Shown here: positions 19,201 to 48,670 of the stretch, piece after piece
How positions within the stretch are numbered: position 1 is the stretch's first letter
How the letters are laid out: each line of letters starts with the position of its first letter
Assembly (NCBI GenBank): GCA_018818835.1
Contig: JAHIRD010000070.1
Location: forward strand, 1 to 64,000
Length of the DNA: 64,000 nt
Source: Pseudomonadota bacterium
GTDB lineage: Bacteria; Desulfobacterota; Desulfobacteria; Desulfobacterales; Desulfolunaceae
Direction of reading: 5' to 3'
The notes under the pieces: generated by a model
Told to the model about the DNA's origin: nothing
The model's input: the letters and a program-made list of their open reading frames with translations, nothing else
Databases searched by the model: none
Made by a program: the position numbers and the translations under genes

Positions 19201-21222
19201 ATGGAAAATTTACCGTTGTTGTGTACGTATGCGGGTCTTGCCGGTGTTGCTTTTGCAATTGCCATGGCAATTGCCGTAAAAGCGGCTCCCGCAGGTAACG
19301 AAAAAATGAATGAAATTGCCGATGCGATTAAAGCGGGTGCCATCGCTTATCTTAATCGTCAGGCAAAAAGCATGGGTATTACCGGTATCATTATTGCCGC
19401 AATTATCTATTTTGCTCCCGGTTATGGCCTTTATGCCACATTAGGCTTTGTGGTTGGTGCTCTTGCATCTTACCTTGCAGGCTATGTCGGAATGCGCGTT
19501 TCCGTTATCGCCAATGTGCGAACTGCTGAAGCTTCACGTCACGGCCTCAATGCCGGTCTTCGTATGGCTTTCAATGGCGGTACAGTTACAGGTATGATGG
19601 TTGCCGGTCTTGCCCTTACCGTTTGTGCAGGTCTCTATACATTCCTTGTTTTCAAAGCCATTGATCCTAAACAGATCAACGTTGCCCTTATCGCCCTTGG
19701 TTTTGGAGGTAGTCTTATCTCTATCTTCGCCCGTTTGGGTGGTGGTATTTTCACCAAAGGTGCTGATGTTGGAGCTGACCTTGTAGGTAAAATCGAAGCC
19801 GGTATTCCCGAAGATGACCCACGAAACCCTGCAACCATCGCAGATAACGTCGGTGACAACGTGGGTGACTGTGCCGGTATGGCTGCCGATCTTTTCGAAA
19901 CGTATGCGGTAACCACCGTTGCGGCCATGGTTCTTGCTGAGATTCTTTTCCCGAAAAACAACATGGCCATTATTCTTCCCCTTATTTTGGGTGCCATTTC
20001 AATTTTTGCTTCCGGTATTGCGACATTTTTTGTTCGCCTTAACGAAGGTGACGATTACATCATGGGTGCTCTTTATAAAGGACAGTTCGGAGCTGCTATC
20101 ATCGCTGCTGCCGGGTTCTTTTTCGTATTCAAGAAAATCGGTGTTATTGGTGACTACACTGTAGCTCAGCTTTATGCAAGTTCTCTTGTTGGCCTTGTTC
20201 TTACCGTTGTGATCGTTATTATCACAGAATACTACACCGGTATTTACGCACCGGTTAAAGGTATTGCCGAAGCGTCAACAACCGGTCATGGTACAAACAT
20301 GATCGCTGGTCTTGCCGTATCCATGGTTTCAACGGCAGCTCCTGTTCTTGCCATCTGTGCTTCAATCTATACTGCTAATCATTATGCCGGCCTTTATGGT
20401 ATTGCTATTGCCGCTGTTTCCATGCTGTCCATGACAGGTATGGTTATTGCCATCGACGCATACGGTCCTATTACCGATAACGCCGGTGGTATTGCAGAAA
20501 TGGCCGGTATGGATGATTCTGTTCGTGCTGTAACTGATCCTCTGGATGCTGTTGGTAACACCACAAAAGCTGTAACCAAAGGTTATGCCATCGGTTCTGC
20601 AGCCCTTGCAGCCATGGTTCTTTTTTCAGCTTACACCCAGGAATTTGCACATGCCGGTACAAAACTTCTCTTTGACCTTTCACAGGTTGAAGTTCTGATC
20701 GGTCTTTTCATTGGTGGTCTTCTTCCTTACCTGTTCGGTGCCATGGCCATGAAAGCAGTTGGTAAAGCCGGTCATGCTGTTGTTAACGAAGTTCGTCGTC
20801 AGTTTAAAGAAATTCCGGGTATCATGGAAGGTACAGCCAAACCTGATTACGCTGCATGTGTTGACATCGTAACCAAGTTCGCTCTTTCCGAAATGATGAT
20901 TCCTGCACTTCTTCCGATCGTCGTTCCTGTTATCGTTGGTTTTGTTCTTGGGCCAGAAGCTCTTGGCGGACTCCTCATTGGTAGTATTATTACCGGTCTT
21001 TTCGTGGGTATCTCCATGACAACCGGTGGTGCTGCATGGGATAATGCAAAAAAATACATCGAAGACGACCATTACGGCGGAAAAGGCAGCGATGCCCATA
21101 AAGCTGCTGTTACCGGTGACACCGTAGGTGACCCCTACAAAGATACAGCCGGTCCTGCGATCAACCCGATGATTAAAATCCTCAACGTTGTCGCACTTCT
21201 TCTGGTTCCCTTTATTGGCTAA
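19201..21222 (+). CDS. hppA: K+-independent H+-pumping membrane pyrophosphatase
   Basis: Integral-membrane enzyme coupling pyrophosphate hydrolysis to proton transport. Its 673 residues contain about 16 predicted helices. The substrate region [18 protein letters not shown], plus DDRDxxxA-type [17 protein letters not shown] near the C-terminus, is intact. The sequence [14 protein letters not shown] has Lys where K+-dependent members have Ala, so I class it as K+-independent. ATG 19201 has GGAGG 5 bp upstream. Codons are heavily biased to T-ending ones (GGT, CTT), unlike neighbours, suggesting high expression. It lies behind pth and is closed by a terminator. Confidence 0.95.
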
Positions 21223-39357: not shown

Positions 39358-41697
39358 TTAAATCCTGAGCTGGATATCGGTGATATGGCCTGTGACTCCG
39401 GTGCGAATATGGGCGGCGTTGGCTTCGTCCGTATCAATATGCATGGCCAGTTTGAATTTGGGACTGACCCGGACCAGAACATCACCGAAAATCAGTTCCC
39501 GATCTCCATGGATCTGAACCCGGACCACATCCCGGTCGTGGAGGCCGAATTCAATGGCGTCTTCGGGTGTCATGTGGATGTGCCTGAGGGCACAAATCAC
39601 ACCTTTGTCAATGGTGACTTGGCCTTCAGACCCTTCAAGGGTGATTCCCGGTGTATTGATGATATTTCCCGACGCGCGTATGGGGGGCTGGATCCCTAAT
39701 TGGAACTGTTCTGTCATGGATATTTCCACCTGGGTATCATTACGGACAGGCCCAAGGATTCGGACCCGTTCTACCCGGCCCTTGGGTCCGATAAGGGCCA
39801 CCTGCTCTTCGCAGGCAAACTGGCCGGGCTGGGAAAGCTCGGATTTGGGGGTCAGGGTATGGCCTTTTCCGTAAAGGGCTTCCACGTGCTCCTGGGTCAG
39901 ATGGACATGATGGGCAGACACTTCGATCATCAAGGGGGCATGTTTGCGTTTCAAAACGTGGGTCACGGCATGGTACTTCATGGTCTTCAAAGACTCACGA
40001 GCGATCATCCTCTCTTCATCTGTTGGAATGACCAGAACAAAGATGCGTGAGTCATCGGTTGAAATGATTATGGGCTCATTGCAGGTTGATGCCTGTTTGT
40101 TTTTTTCAGGATCAATGATGATCCCCATGCATTCAAGGCCCTGGCAGGCCTGGCTTCTGACGCTGTGATCACTTTGGCCGAGCCATCCCGTGAATACAAG
40201 GGCATCGATGCCCTCCATGGCTGCAATATAGGCACCGATGTATTTTCGAATTCTGTAACAGAAGGCTTTAAATGCAAGCAGGGCACGATGATCGCCCTTG
40301 TTTGCCGCCTCCATGATTTCGGGCATGCTGTTAGATATGCCGGACAATCCTTTGAGACCGCTTTCTCTGTTCAAGAGTATTTCCAGTTCATCCACAGACA
40401 GGTTTTTATCCCGCATGAGTTTAAGGATCACCGAGGGGTCTATGTCCCCGCACCGTGTTCCCATCATCAGGCCTTCGGTGGGGGACAGGCCCATGGTGGT
40501 GTCCACGGAGCGCCCATGGTCCACGGCACAAAGGGAGGCCGTGTTTTCCAGATGGCAGGTGACGATTTCAAGTTTGTTGTAGGGCCGCTTGAGGATTTCG
40601 GCTGTTTTTAATGAGGCGTAGGCATGGGACATGCCATGGAATCCGTAACGCCGTATCTTGTGTTGTTCGTAAAATTCGTAAGGGATGCCGTAAAGGTAGG
40701 CGTAAGGGGGCATGGTGTGATGAAATGCCGTATCAAAAACAGCCACATGCAAGGCATCCTGGAAAAACGCCATGCCTTTATTTATGCCGATAAGATTGAA
40801 GGGGTTATGCTGGGGGGCCAGGGGGGATAAGTCCTTGATCTTTGAGATGATATCCTCGGTGATCACTGCGGGGGTTTCAAAGTCACTTCCTCCATGAACC
40901 ACCCGGTGGCCCACCAGAGTCACATCAAAGGGAGAGTCGATGACACCGTTTTTTTTGTCTGTCAGCTGTTCAAACATGAGTTTAAAGGCCGTATCATGGT
41001 CAATATTCCCCAGGTCATGGCTGATTTGCCCTTTTGAGTATGTGTAGATATGGCGGCCTTTGTCCGATCCCAGATGGATGATTCGCCCCGTGATGTTCAG
41101 ACTTTCGTCGGCGGTATTGTAAAGATTGTATTTAAGGGAGGAGGCCCCGCAGTTGATCACCATAATCTTGATGGGTTCACTGGACTGGAGTTTGAAGCCA
41201 TAGAGATCTCTGTTTTTCCCAAAGGCCCGTGCTGCATTTTCGCGCCCCTCTTCATCAATGGTAAATGTATGAAGGAGCTTGCTCATCATCTTTGTGATCA
41301 CCCGAATGGTGGGCAGATGGGTGAGAATAAGGCTTGCGAAAACCGTCTGTGGGATCACAAGCACTCTGCACCGGCTGACCCCGATGATGTCCGAGGGATT
41401 GAGTTCGCCTGTCATCATGGGGATCAGGCCGATGATGCCACCGGGTCCCAGGGTCAAAAGGACATTTTGCTCTCCAAGATTGTTGGTGACCGATGCCACG
41501 GCTTTACCCTCAAGGATGATACCCAAAAAATGGGCTTCTTCACCGAATTCCACGATGCCTTCGTTTTCTTCAAATGTTTTTTCATAGGAGTCCTTGAGCA
41601 GCTCTGCCAGTTGCTCATCGGAAAAGTGGGTGAATAATTCCGTTTTGGTTTTAAGAATATCAATAAGCGCCATGGTATTCATATGTGCTGTCTCCAT
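39358..41697 (-). CDS. Fused cNMP-like sensor / acetate kinase / PduL phosphotransacylase
   Basis: A 779-residue triple fusion. (1) Residues about 20-140 form a cyclic nucleotide-binding (Crp-like) fold; the phosphate cassette GGIIGLIPMMTGELNPSDIIG lacks the usual Glu and Arg, so cAMP may not be the ligand. (2) About 177-570 is an acetate/propionate kinase: INCGASSLKYNLY, GHRVVHGG (263-270), FDTAFHH, GTRCGDIDP (413-421), PTDEER. The loops HLGNG and GGIGEN are changed to HLENT (382-386) and GWLGQS (504-509). (3) About 588-775 is PduL phosphotransacylase: SAHHVHL and RHIHM (Zn ligands), HIDTDEANA. Together it would link acetyl-CoA, acetyl phosphate and acetate. The start codon could also be Met6 or Met9. 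Confidence 0.9.
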   Translation of the reverse strand: METAHMNTMALIDILKTKTELFTHFSDEQLAELLKDSYEKTFEENEGIVEFGEEAHFLGIILEGKAVASVTNNLGEQNVLLTLGPGGIIGLIPMMTGELNPSDIIGVSRCRVLVIPQTVFASLILTHLPTIRVITKMMSKLLHTFTIDEEGRENAARAFGKNRDLYGFKLQSSEPIKIMVINCGASSLKYNLYNTADESLNITGRIIHLGSDKGRHIYTYSKGQISHDLGNIDHDTAFKLMFEQLTDKKNGVIDSPFDVTLVGHRVVHGGSDFETPAVITEDIISKIKDLSPLAPQHNPFNLIGINKGMAFFQDALHVAVFDTAFHHTMPPYAYLYGIPYEFYEQHKIRRYGFHGMSHAYASLKTAEILKRPYNKLEIVTCHLENTASLCAVDHGRSVDTTMGLSPTEGLMMGTRCGDIDPSVILKLMRDKNLSVDELEILLNRESGLKGLSGISNSMPEIMEAANKGDHRALLAFKAFCYRIRKYIGAYIAAMEGIDALVFTGWLGQSDHSVRSQACQGLECMGIIIDPEKNKQASTCNEPIIISTDDSRIFVLVIPTDEERMIARESLKTMKYHAVTHVLKRKHAPLMIEVSAHHVHLTQEHVEALYGKGHTLTPKSELSQPGQFACEEQVALIGPKGRVERVRILGPVRNDTQVEISMTEQFQLGIQPPIRASGNIINTPGITLEGSEGQVTIDKGVICALRHIHMTPEDAIEFGLHDRDVVRVQIHGDRELIFGDVLVRVSPKFKLAMHIDTDEANAAHIRTGVTGHITDIQLRI

Positions 41698-45064: not shown

Positions 45065-48000
45065 TCAGAATGTGATGGCCTGGGAGTTCTTCAATAATCG
45101 CTCCAATTCCAGAATCCAGTTATTCCCACCTGTTTTCAATGCCAGTTCAACAGCCATATGACGTGGAATGGCTCCGGTGTCCATATTCCGCCCCAGACCC
45201 TGGATACAGGCCGGGCAGTTGGTGAGGATGACCTTGGGACTGTTTCCCACGGCAGCCTGGAGGGTCCTTCGTTTTCTATCCAGCATGGCATTGGAAATAT
45301 CCGGGCGGGATAAGGGCATGGTTCCACTTTCGGAACAGCAATGGGGGGTCGGGGTCACGCTATACCCTGCACGGCTTTTCAGAATATCCACCGCTTTTCC
45401 CTGGAGTGAGTCATGGCAGGGTGCATGGTAGAGAAACTGGCCTTCTCCTTTGACCTTCAATCCGTTTTCAAGCACAAAGGCACTGATATCGGTAATGGGA
45501 CTTTTGAAAATATTTTCAGCATCAACTTCCATCAGGGCTTCACGGCAGGTTCCGCAACTGATAATGCAGGCACTGAAGTTGATGTAGTTGAGCATTTCCC
45601 GGATCTGGCTGAAAATGATTGTGTTTTTCAAGGTGATCCGGTCGTGCTGGTCCACTTTTGCGTTGACTTTCAAGGGGAATCCGCAGCAGAGGAACGGGGG
45701 TGGCAGGACCACCTGGATGCCGGCCTTGAGCAGAATATAAATGGAGGCCTTAGAGATATCTGAGAAAAGCCGTTCAGAGCCGCAACCCGGAAAATAAAAT
45801 ACGGATGTGTCACTATTCCCCGGAGGATTGATCACCAGGGCCTGGTTATTCTGGCAGGCGGGCAGGAGATCTCTCAGTGTCGTTTCTGATGGTTTTGGCA
45901 AAGGAGATTTGAGCATCTGCATCACATAGAGATCTTTGATCTGTCTGTATTGCTCAAGGGGCCGGGTCAGTTTGTGCCCCAGCCGTTGAGCGTTTCCTCC
46001 CCAGGTGAGAACGACTTTTCTGAATGTGGCATTGATGATTTTGGACTGACTCTGCAGATACCTGAGGGACAGCCGTGTGGCCATGGATGTATGCTTGAAT
46101 TTTTTGGCGGAAAGGATATTCCTCTCCAATATGGACACGGAACCTGTGTCAATGGACACCGGGCAGGGGGCCAGGCACTTGTGGCACACGGTGCAATGAT
46201 CCGCTATGTCTTCCAATTGTTTCAAATGCTTGAAACGGGTGGAGTGGGACCGGAGCACATCATACAAGATGGCCTCAATCAAGGATGCAATGGCCAGGTT
46301 TTTATTCCTGGGATGATAGAACATATTGGTTTTTGGATAAAAGGTGCAGCAATCGATCTTGCATTTCCCGCAACGAACACAGGTGGAGATACGCGCTGCC
46401 AGATCTTCCAGTGAGCCGTGCTGGAGTATCCGTGCTTCCAGTTCCAGAAGATTAAACGATGGGGTAAATACCTTCTCATGGATTTTGGGGTCCCTCAGCT
46501 GGCCAGGGTTCATCACGCCCCTTGGATCCACGGATTTTCTGTATTCGGAAAGGGCTTTCACATGCTTCGGGTCCAGGTATTTCATTTTGGTAATCCCGAT
46601 GCCATGTTCACCGCTGACCACACCATTAAGAGATACGGCTTTGTCCATGACAGCATCGGCTGTTTGGGCGGCCCGTGCCATCATCTCCATGTCGTTGGAA
46701 AAAACGGGGATGTTTACATGGATGTTACCGTCTCCGGCATGCATGTGTGTGGCAATCACAATACATCGTTCCCGGTTGGCTTGATAGAGTCGCTTTATTT
46801 CCGCAAGAATGCGCTCATAGCCTCTGAAAAACTCCAGAAGATCGGATAACAGCCGTTTGGAAAAGGCTTCGTGTTTGAGCACCTCCGGGATTGCAGCCTT
46901 GAGCTCGGTCACGGCGTGAAGGCAAAGCTCTTTGGCCTTTGGCAGCCGGGCAATGAGCCACTCCCGGTCTTCCAGGGGTTCAGCAAGATCCAGATAAGCC
47001 AGAACCTCATGGATAAAAGATTCCTGATTGAAACGGTCTTCCTCGATATTGTAGAGGTCGGTAAATGACGTGAATTCACCGAGGGCATCCAGGGGAAGGA
47101 CGATGTCTTCATTGAGTTTGAAGGCATTGGTTCGTTTGGCAATGGCCCCCAGTTTTTTTCTGTCCTTCCAGAAACGCTCGGCTTCGTGTTCGTCCTTGGC
47201 CACAAAAATATAGGTGTTTGCATAGGGTTCGAGAAGGGTCTCAAGACGGTTGACCCCGGATTCGATCTGGTCTGTTGTGTGCCCCACCATGTCGATGAGC
47301 AAGGCTGCCTTGGGGCTTTCTTTCCGGGGGGCTTTAACCTTGTAATTGATTGCCGCCATGTATTCGTCATCAAAGTGTTCCAGGGCGATAAGGGCTTCTT
47401 TGCCCTCATTGACGAATTCTTTGGAAATTTCAACAATCACACGGCTGGCTTCTTCCATGTCATTGCCGAAAAATTCCAGGCAGAAGGTTTTTTTGCACTC
47501 GTATTCCGGGTAAAGAATGAAACGGGCGGAGGTGATAATGCCGTCGGTGCCTTCTTTCTGGATGCCCGGGAGTCCGTTCAGGGCTTTGTTGGTAATGTCT
47601 TTCCCAAGGCCGGCTTTTCTGATATCGCTTCCGGAAAGAACAATGGTCCGGTCCAGCTTGCCTGTTTCATCAAAAACGGAAAAACTCACCGTGTCACTGT
47701 GCAGAATTTTTCGCAAGGGGTGGTCGTCCCTTCGGACTTCCAGGGACCTTCCTCCGGGCATGGCAATACGGTAGGATACCAGATTGTCGATGGCGGTTCC
47801 CCACATGACGGCTTTTTTACCACCGGCATTTTCGGCGATATTTCCGCCGATGGTGCAAGCCCAGGAACTGGTGGGGTCTGTGGCAAAGACAAGTCCTTGC
47901 CTGGATGCATATTCCATGGCATTCTGTGTGATAACACCTGATTCCAGGTGGAGAAGGCTCATGGTCACAGTGCCATTGTCTTGGGTGTCGAACTCACAGG

Positions 48001-48670
48001 GCTCGATCCCTCGGATGGTGTTGAGCTTTTCCGTATTGATGATCACGCAATTGGGAGAAACCGGCACACAACCACCGGTGAGCCCAGTGCCAGCACCCCT
48101 GGGTATCACGTGGAGATTCAACTCCTCCACACCTTTTAAAAGAGGGGCAATCTGGTCTTCACGGGTGGGTCTAAGAACAGCCAAGGGCAGATAAAGCCTC
48201 CAGTCTGTGGCATCCGTGGAATGGCTGATCAGGGTGAAGGGGTCAAAAAAAATATTTTCCTTCCCGATGACAGCACCCAGAACCCTTTTCATTCGCCGCC
48301 TTTTTTGAGCATGGTGGGTAATCCCATCGGATAGTTTTTTTAAATATTTCCGGCAGAGTTTGATGATTCTGGCTACTTCGGCACCGGAACCTGTTTTTTC
48401 AATAATGGCCAGGTCATGGGTGGCGGTTGTGAAAAAACGCCGTTTTCTGGGAAGGGAGTCCACCAGGTCCTGATACAGGAAGGGGTTCCGCCTCAGAATA
48501 AACATATCTCCCATCAGGCGCATTAACAGTTTTGCTGAACGGCCGGTGATTCTCCTGCTGCGAAGGGCTTCCAGGTCATTCCATACGGAATCCCCGAACA
48601 GGTGTTTGACGATCAACTCGTCATGGGCTGATGTATAGTTGTAGGGTATTTCCCTGAATTTTTTGCTCAT
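45065..48670 (-). CDS. DUF3683 FAD/Fe-S dehydrogenase (lactate-dehydrogenase-like)
   Basis: A 1201-residue single-chain oxidoreductase. The N-terminal DUF3683-like part (REIPYNYTSAHDELI) is followed by an FAD-binding domain (about 160-390; IPRGAGTGLTGGCVP at 189-203), an FAD-oxidase C-terminal domain (THMHAGDGNIHVN, SGEHGIGITK), a 4Fe-4S ferredoxin part (CVRCGKCKIDC; CTVCHKCLAPCP) and two CCG cysteine domains (FPGCGSERLF, FLCCGFP; SCGTCREAL, HAPCHDSL). Together these match GlcD/DLD and GlpC-like subunits fused. The substrate is probably a 2-hydroxyacid such as D-lactate, unproven. It would pass electrons through the Fe-S clusters to a quinone or another acceptor. Confidence 0.87.
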   Translation of the reverse strand: MSKKFREIPYNYTSAHDELIVKHLFGDSVWNDLEALRSRRITGRSAKLLMRLMGDMFILRRNPFLYQDLVDSLPRKRRFFTTATHDLAIIEKTGSGAEVARIIKLCRKYLKKLSDGITHHAQKRRRMKRVLGAVIGKENIFFDPFTLISHSTDATDWRLYLPLAVLRPTREDQIAPLLKGVEELNLHVIPRGAGTGLTGGCVPVSPNCVIINTEKLNTIRGIEPCEFDTQDNGTVTMSLLHLESGVITQNAMEYASRQGLVFATDPTSSWACTIGGNIAENAGGKKAVMWGTAIDNLVSYRIAMPGGRSLEVRRDDHPLRKILHSDTVSFSVFDETGKLDRTIVLSGSDIRKAGLGKDITNKALNGLPGIQKEGTDGIITSARFILYPEYECKKTFCLEFFGNDMEEASRVIVEISKEFVNEGKEALIALEHFDDEYMAAINYKVKAPRKESPKAALLIDMVGHTTDQIESGVNRLETLLEPYANTYIFVAKDEHEAERFWKDRKKLGAIAKRTNAFKLNEDIVLPLDALGEFTSFTDLYNIEEDRFNQESFIHEVLAYLDLAEPLEDREWLIARLPKAKELCLHAVTELKAAIPEVLKHEAFSKRLLSDLLEFFRGYERILAEIKRLYQANRERCIVIATHMHAGDGNIHVNIPVFSNDMEMMARAAQTADAVMDKAVSLNGVVSGEHGIGITKMKYLDPKHVKALSEYRKSVDPRGVMNPGQLRDPKIHEKVFTPSFNLLELEARILQHGSLEDLAARISTCVRCGKCKIDCCTFYPKTNMFYHPRNKNLAIASLIEAILYDVLRSHSTRFKHLKQLEDIADHCTVCHKCLAPCPVSIDTGSVSILERNILSAKKFKHTSMATRLSLRYLQSQSKIINATFRKVVLTWGGNAQRLGHKLTRPLEQYRQIKDLYVMQMLKSPLPKPSETTLRDLLPACQNNQALVINPPGNSDTSVFYFPGCGSERLFSDISKASIYILLKAGIQVVLPPPFLCCGFPLKVNAKVDQHDRITLKNTIIFSQIREMLNYINFSACIISCGTCREALMEVDAENIFKSPITDISAFVLENGLKVKGEGQFLYHAPCHDSLQGKAVDILKSRAGYSVTPTPHCCSESGTMPLSRPDISNAMLDRKRRTLQAAVGNSPKVILTNCPACIQGLGRNMDTGAIPRHMAVELALKTGGNNWILELERLLKNSQAITF

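Follow-up and report, generated by a model that had tools for sequence, protein, structure and literature searches.

A single open reading frame that joins a Crp-like sensor fold, an acetate kinase (Ack) and a PduL phosphotransacylase raises the question of whether its product is a self-contained route from acyl-CoA to free acid or whether one of its parts has taken on a different task. We examined this frame in the window, by which we mean the whole stretch of 64,000 nucleotides that was analyzed, and find that the active sites of the fusion hold more of interest than the order of its domains: the architecture was already partly known, whereas the active-site remodelling is new. Residues are numbered in the 779-aa reading of the protein, and the features within the gene are as follows.

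39358–41697, minus strand: fusion ORF at its first-read extent, 779 codons, uninterrupted
39358–41682, minus strand: probable coding sequence, starting at Met6 (774 aa), with GGAG before the ATG at 41680–41682 and homologue L011 starting alike
41260–41676, minus strand: Crp-like cNMP-binding-fold domain (cNBD), residues 8–146 (PF00027, 1.3e-12; AlphaFold pLDDT 90.4)
41380–41430, minus strand: phosphate-binding-cassette region, residues 90–106, with L91 and N100 in place of Glu and Arg, D103 conserved
39997–41169, minus strand: acetate kinase domain, residues 177–567 (PF00871, 444.8 bits; TIGR00016; TM 0.95 to 1g99)
40540–40548, minus strand: PHOSPHATE2 motif HLGNG changed to HLENT, residues 384–386 being E, N, T at MtACK Gly210, Asn211 and Gly212
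40183–40185, minus strand: Trp505, at MtACK Gly331 by residue mapping, in the ADENOSINE motif TAGIGENS changed to TGWLGQSD
39406–39930, minus strand: PduL phosphotransacylase domain, residues 590–764 (PTAC/PduL, PF06130, 262.7 bits, full profile)

The frame of 779 codons reported by the first-pass annotation exists, but it is encoded on the minus strand (many stops interrupt the opposite strand across the same interval), and its natural start is probably Met6 at 41682, because a GGAG stands 9 nt upstream of that ATG and L011, with 73% identity, starts from the aligned Met, which is preceded by AGGAGG. The claim that three full domains share one chain was borne out: the Pfam profiles cNMP_binding, Acetate_kinase and PTAC/PduL all match above their curated cut-offs, and AlphaFold models the whole fusion confidently as three domains (mean pLDDT 86), only the linkers at residues 147–162 and 581–585 being weak. 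Two ways in which the fusion might have been unreal had been named, assembly errors at the junctions and separate translation of the domains. Neither is the case: the ORF contains no internal stop or frameshift, and the same domain order recurs in 61 homologues (56 loci from public genomes and five from a search of the phylum), so that junctions and domains alike are no artefacts of the source assembly. Pseudogene decay is likewise rejected by the purifying selection seen between the window gene and L011, with dN ≈ 0.19 and dS ≈ 1.5 over the whole gene and each domain alike.

The PduL domain retains the metal- and phosphate-binding residues of the enzyme family, in which these ligand roles have been defined (PMC4784909). 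The zinc-binding histidines H597, H599, H706, H708 and H753 and the phosphate-binding R652 are all present, and the same set occurs in 91 of 91 fusions; the HVHL and RHIHM motifs had already been read as intact, to which the third site, H753, can be added. The Foldseek alignment of this half with R. palustris PduL (5cuo) gives a TM of 0.95–0.96 at 45% identity.

The acetate kinase half is also complete, its match to PF00871 spanning profile positions 1–392 of 392, its full-length TIGR00016 (ackA) score standing at 443 against a cut-off of 293, and its fold superposing on M. thermophila acetate kinase (1g99, Foldseek) with a TM of 0.95 at 44% identity. The acyl-phosphate and catalytic residues N182, R265, H297, D322, H354, R415 and E561 are intact and correspond, in order, to Asn7, Arg91, His123, Asp148, His180, Arg241 and Glu384 of the M. 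thermophila enzyme (MtACK). The ATP-site motif HLGNG and Gly331 are missing, with HLENT and Trp505 in their place; in MtACK numbering the changes are Gly331→Trp, Gly210→Glu, Gly212→Thr and Arg285→Pro, together with positions 334 and 335, while Asn211, Gly239, the Mg-site Glu384, Ser12 and Lys14 are kept. Leu122 is replaced by Gln, a change that may shift acyl preference.

These positions matter in characterized enzymes. Gly331, which is reported to be shared by all ATP-ACKs, touches the alpha and beta phosphates, and the G331Q substitution lowers MtACK activity ≈117-fold (PMC4390882; PMC5517563). Asn211, Gly239 and Gly331 govern nucleotide use, replacements cutting activity 6- to 200-fold (Ingram-Smith et al. 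2015, PMC4390882), and Gly331, completely conserved in ATP-dependent Acks, is Gln in the E. histolytica PPi enzyme (Dang and Ingram-Smith 2017, PMC5517563). Closing the MtACK pocket lowered ATP use without abolishing it and brought no gain of PPi use, and Asp at position 331 was found in a few anaerobic bacteria, the acceptor of these enzymes being left unexplained (PMC5517563). Read against this background, the sequence suggests that the pocket for adenosine and the alpha and beta phosphates of ADP/ATP has been rebuilt in the lineage of the window protein.

The N-terminal domain is a cNBD by profile and by predicted fold. Its Pfam core covers residues 40–126 (47.9 bits), and the domain modelled alone (pLDDT 90.4) matches solved cNBDs with Z scores of 17–20 and a maximum of 20.4. 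No match to the helix-turn-helix of Crp/Fnr regulators was found in the fusion; residue 146 is followed by the low-confidence linker and then by acetate kinase. The first-pass annotation was right that the usual Glu/Arg phosphate cassette is absent, L91 and N100 occupying those positions. The cyclic-phosphate-binding Arg occurs in none of the 61 three-domain proteins, and Asp is present at position 103 in 58 of them. Since the fold lacks this Arg, a role in binding a ligand other than a cyclic nucleotide, or in scaffolding, is reasonable, and cAMP sensing is judged unlikely.

To place the protein among its relatives, we scanned one genome per species, plus loci fetched from relatives of the window's source, which yielded 56 three-domain and 26 two-domain Ack-PduL homologues. 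The search of the phylum added five further three-domain proteins, for a total of 61 three-domain and ≈30 two-domain forms across many phyla. They are carried by, among others, a Desulforapulum MAG and members of the Planctomycetota, Hydrogenedentota, Verrucomicrobiota, Fibrobacterota and Chloroflexota, and by numerous Rhodocyclales such as Dechloromonas, Zoogloea, Thauera and Azonexus. Occurrence is patchy: at a threshold of E ≤ 1e-140, two- and three-domain forms together appear in 10 of the 395 genomes from the window's phylum, the three-domain form in two of 58 genomes in the search of relatives (the window's own included) and the fusion in three of 200 genomes of the order of Dechloromonas. 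The cNBD-Ack-PduL order is thus uncommon, yet not singular, and the notion of a unique, one-off module must be given up, the more so because PduL-Ack fusions were noted, with channelling suggested, by Erbilgin et al. (2016; PMC4784909), who described them as free of encapsulation peptides. It had been foreseen that the order might prove common and described, and this came true in part: homologues are widespread and the PduL-Ack fusion is published, but the order remains uncommon, and in the open-access literature we found no paper on the form joining a cNBD to acetate kinase.

Residues were mapped to MtACK numbering in the 61 three-domain proteins, 30 two-domain fusions and 26 stand-alone Acks. 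Asn7, Arg91, His123, Asp148, His180 and Arg241 are unchanged in all 61 three-domain proteins, and Gly331 is kept in all 30 two-domain fusions and all 26 stand-alone Acks. Among the three-domain proteins, three types can be told apart. Type A, from Planctomycetota, Hydrogenedentota, Verrucomicrobiota and others, retains Gly331. Type B, two distinct sequences comprising the window protein and a Desulforapulum homologue (Desulfobacteraceae), has Gly331→Trp, Gly210→Glu, Gly212→Thr and Arg285→Pro/Thr. Type C, from Rhodocyclales, carries in most members Ser10→Ile/Leu, Ser12→Gln, Lys14→His, Asn211→Ile, Gly239→Pro, Gly331→Asp/Glu, Asn335→Thr and Glu384→Asp/Asn; the window protein is less changed than this type because it keeps Asn211, Gly239 and Glu384.

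In a tree of the Ack domain built without the nucleotide-motif sites, the cNBD-bearing proteins group in a single clade (95/97) that branches from within the two-domain fusions. This is most simply read as a single Ack-PduL fusion that later gained the cNBD once and was transferred from phylum to phylum. The Trp and Asp/Glu clades each have support of 100/100 and are separated by Gly331 members, with the nodes between them supported at 91/81 and 92/70. Because types B and C are separate, supported clades with Gly331 members between them, the remodelling of the nucleotide site probably arose at least two times. The cNBD follows the same division: the cassette Glu, which contacts ribose, is present in 16 of 16 Gly331 three-domain proteins and gone from 44 of 45 remodelled ones, the sole remodelled fusion to retain it being a basal Rhodocyclales member (L022). 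Since the cassette Glu tracks Gly331 across the 61 proteins, the cNBD cassette and the kinase nucleotide site have changed together, in two branches. In trypanosomatid PKA the Arg of the cNBD is lost and purine nucleosides are bound instead (PMC10959531); this precedent, together with the control of the mycobacterial Pat by a cNBD (4avb), suggests that the type A domain senses a nucleoside-like ligand and that those of types B and C do not.

Genomic context gives the fusion no constant partner. In the mapped loci there is no conserved operon partner; the gene is a solitary one, and its neighbors are not the same even in the window and in the locus of its homologue with 73% identity. With rough gene calls, no microcompartment shell or signature-enzyme genes were recognized by eye beside the gene in these loci; a microcompartment role is set aside on this ground and on the published lack of encapsulation peptides in such fusions (PMC4784909). 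Upstream of the fusion, past two plus-strand genes, the nearest gene on the minus strand lies at 45065–48670 and encodes a 1201-aa putative fusion, named by eye, of an FAD-linked lactate/glycolate-type dehydrogenase with an Fe-S (CCG) subunit. In some Azonexaceae only, the remodelled fusion sits directly behind or near cysI, cysH or cysD, cysN-like genes, again recognized by eye:

L045, 7006–9917: sulfate-assimilation-like genes near the fusion
L019, 5879–6604 and 14928–17143: sulfate-assimilation-like genes near the fusion

The cell from which the window derives also has a canonical ackA-pta pair on a separate contig (C129). Ack and Pta were sought in 35 further genomes, and the separate Acks were classed by their motifs. 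Of the 16 genomes with a remodelled fusion, 14 have a separate canonical Ack (12 of 14 Rhodocyclales and both type B genomes), as against two of 20 with a canonical fusion, four others of which have a divergent second Ack; Fisher's test gives p = 4e-6, or 8e-4 if divergent Acks are counted as separate Acks, over what are only two evolutionary events and many incomplete MAGs. This distribution fits canonical fusions carrying the Ack duty of the cell and remodelled fusions having been released from it. Divergent stand-alone second Acks of planctomycetal and verrucomicrobial genomes (L143–L146, L150) carry Arg91→Lys, Asp148→Glu, Asn211→Gly, Gly212→Ser, Gly239→Asn and Thr240→Asn, and are possibly another non-standard Ack group. 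In addition, an ackA-like gene beside a phosphotransbutyrylase-like gene (G000:C204:30284–31410; L004, L005) is split between two frames with in-frame stops, and represents either a broken gene or an assembly frameshift.

We put a probability of about 0.5 on the reading that the protein is a fused PduL-Ack with an N-terminal cNBD-fold regulator or scaffold blind to cyclic nucleotides, whose kinase half probably does not use ADP/ATP in the ordinary way. The zinc ligands being intact, acetyl-CoA or another short acyl-CoA would react with phosphate at the two-zinc PduL site, and the acyl phosphate would then pass locally to the kinase half, with its intact acyl-phosphate-binding and catalytic residues. 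Because the nucleotide pocket is rebuilt, that half would use an acceptor other than ADP, or ADP at strongly reduced efficiency, and the ordinary ATP-forming work in the source cell would fall to the separate ackA-pta operon. A further step, which we consider unlikely, is that the kinase switched at least twice from ADP to another acceptor (Pi to give PPi, for example) while the attached cNBD lost its nucleotide-type contact alongside.

The rival that survives best, though we still think it improbable on balance, is an ordinary ATP-forming module in which ADP/ATP is used as before, local rearrangement accommodates the altered loops and the fusion channels acetyl phosphate. The acyl-side residues and Glu384 are all intact, TIGR00016 is matched over its full length above the cut-off, many three-domain relatives have canonical sites, and a bulky residue at MtACK 331 lowers ATP use without abolishing it (PMC4390882). 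Against this, Gly331→Trp is accompanied by changes at 210, 212, 285, 334 and 335, Gly331 is reported as invariant in ATP-ACKs (PMC5517563) and the same cell keeps a separate canonical Ack. The first-pass annotation had proposed a self-contained acyl-CoA to acid module; since the nucleotide-binding motifs of the kinase half are changed, ATP formation by it cannot be assumed.

Less plausible again is a PPi-type kinase as in Entamoeba histolytica, converting acetyl phosphate and Pi to acetate and PPi. The net reaction of the module would be acetyl-CoA + 2 Pi → acetate + CoA + PPi, and energy could be recovered by a membrane H+-PPase, which is encoded in the window.

19240–21204, plus strand: membrane H+-pyrophosphatase (PF03030, 859 bits)

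The E. histolytica enzyme also has another residue at Gly331 (PMC4390882; PMC5517563), some Azonexaceae have sulfate-assimilation genes (cysIH or cysDN) next to a remodelled homologue, and, as circumstantial support, the 6.75 Mb genome encodes ATP sulfurylase and, of three pyrophosphatase families searched, only the H+-PPase (PF03030), with no PF00719 or PF02833 member. However, the extra Gly of the E. histolytica PHOSPHATE2 motif is missing (CHLENTAS aligns with CHLGNGSS without an insertion), pocket closure in MtACK yielded no PPi use and the authors left the acceptor of Asp-331 bacterial Acks unexplained (both PMC5517563), sulfate reducers commonly have an H+-PPase for unrelated reasons, and a PPi-dependent acetate kinase was sought without success in Desulfobulbus propionicus (PMC3072085). 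Least probable is a pseudokinase that binds acetyl phosphate without transfer and, as sensor or scaffold, controls PduL together with the cNBD: the remodelled motifs, strongest in Rhodocyclales (Glu384→Asp/Asn; Ser12 and Lys14→Gln and His), and the separate canonical Ack of the same genomes would suit it, but the catalytic Arg91, His180, Asp148 and Arg241, which a pure scaffold would not need, are invariant, and the window's branch also keeps Glu384, Ser12 and Lys14.

The fusion family bears on how acetate kinases choose their donor, a single PPi enzyme being known (PMC5517563). It offers close homologues with and without the Gly331 change, in two independent branches and with canonical controls in the same genomes, and its cNBDs may be viewed as a natural series, with the cassette Glu at one end and without it at the other. 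Should the acceptor be something other than ADP, an energy yield deduced from an 'ackA' annotation in such genomes would be wrong; if the kinase has indeed switched acceptor, the family would provide a CoA-linked equivalent, in bacteria, of the PPi-forming acetate kinase of Entamoeba.

Among known systems, the published PduL-Ack fusions (PMC4784909) share the joining of PduL (PF06130) to acetate kinase without an encapsulation peptide, but their description covers neither a cNBD nor the kinase nucleotide site, whereas the window protein has a cNBD and a remodelled site. The ATP-dependent AckA enzymes of M. thermophila (1g99/1tuy) and T. maritima (2iir) have the same full-length fold and acyl-phosphate-side residues; the window protein differs from them by Gly331→Trp, HLGNG→HLENT, Arg285→Pro and Leu122→Gln, and in being fused on both sides. 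With the E. histolytica PPi Ack and the Asp-331 Acks of Anaerolineae (PMC5517563) it has in common the replacement of Gly331, by the same Asp in the Rhodocyclales homologues, but it lacks the extra PHOSPHATE2 Gly of the former (4h0o), to which it is 29% identical. R. palustris PduL (5cuo) agrees in fold, in all zinc-binding His and in the phosphate Arg, the window domain differing in having no encapsulation peptide and in forming the C-terminal part of a multidomain enzyme. At the other end of the chain, the mycobacterial Pat Rv0998 (4avb; Z 18.1 over 138 residues) is a parallel in architecture: there too a cNBD stands at the N-terminus of an enzyme that acts in acetyl-CoA metabolism, in this case an acetyltransferase that uses acetyl-CoA. 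Pat, however, binds cAMP, whereas the window cNBD lacks the cassette Arg and Glu and the catalytic parts are unrelated. The cNBD of the trypanosomatid PKA regulatory subunit (6flo and 6hyq, Foldseek ranks 3 and 12; PMC10959531) likewise lacks the cassette Arg; that subunit binds purine nucleosides, and the window protein departs from it in having lost the family Glu as well.
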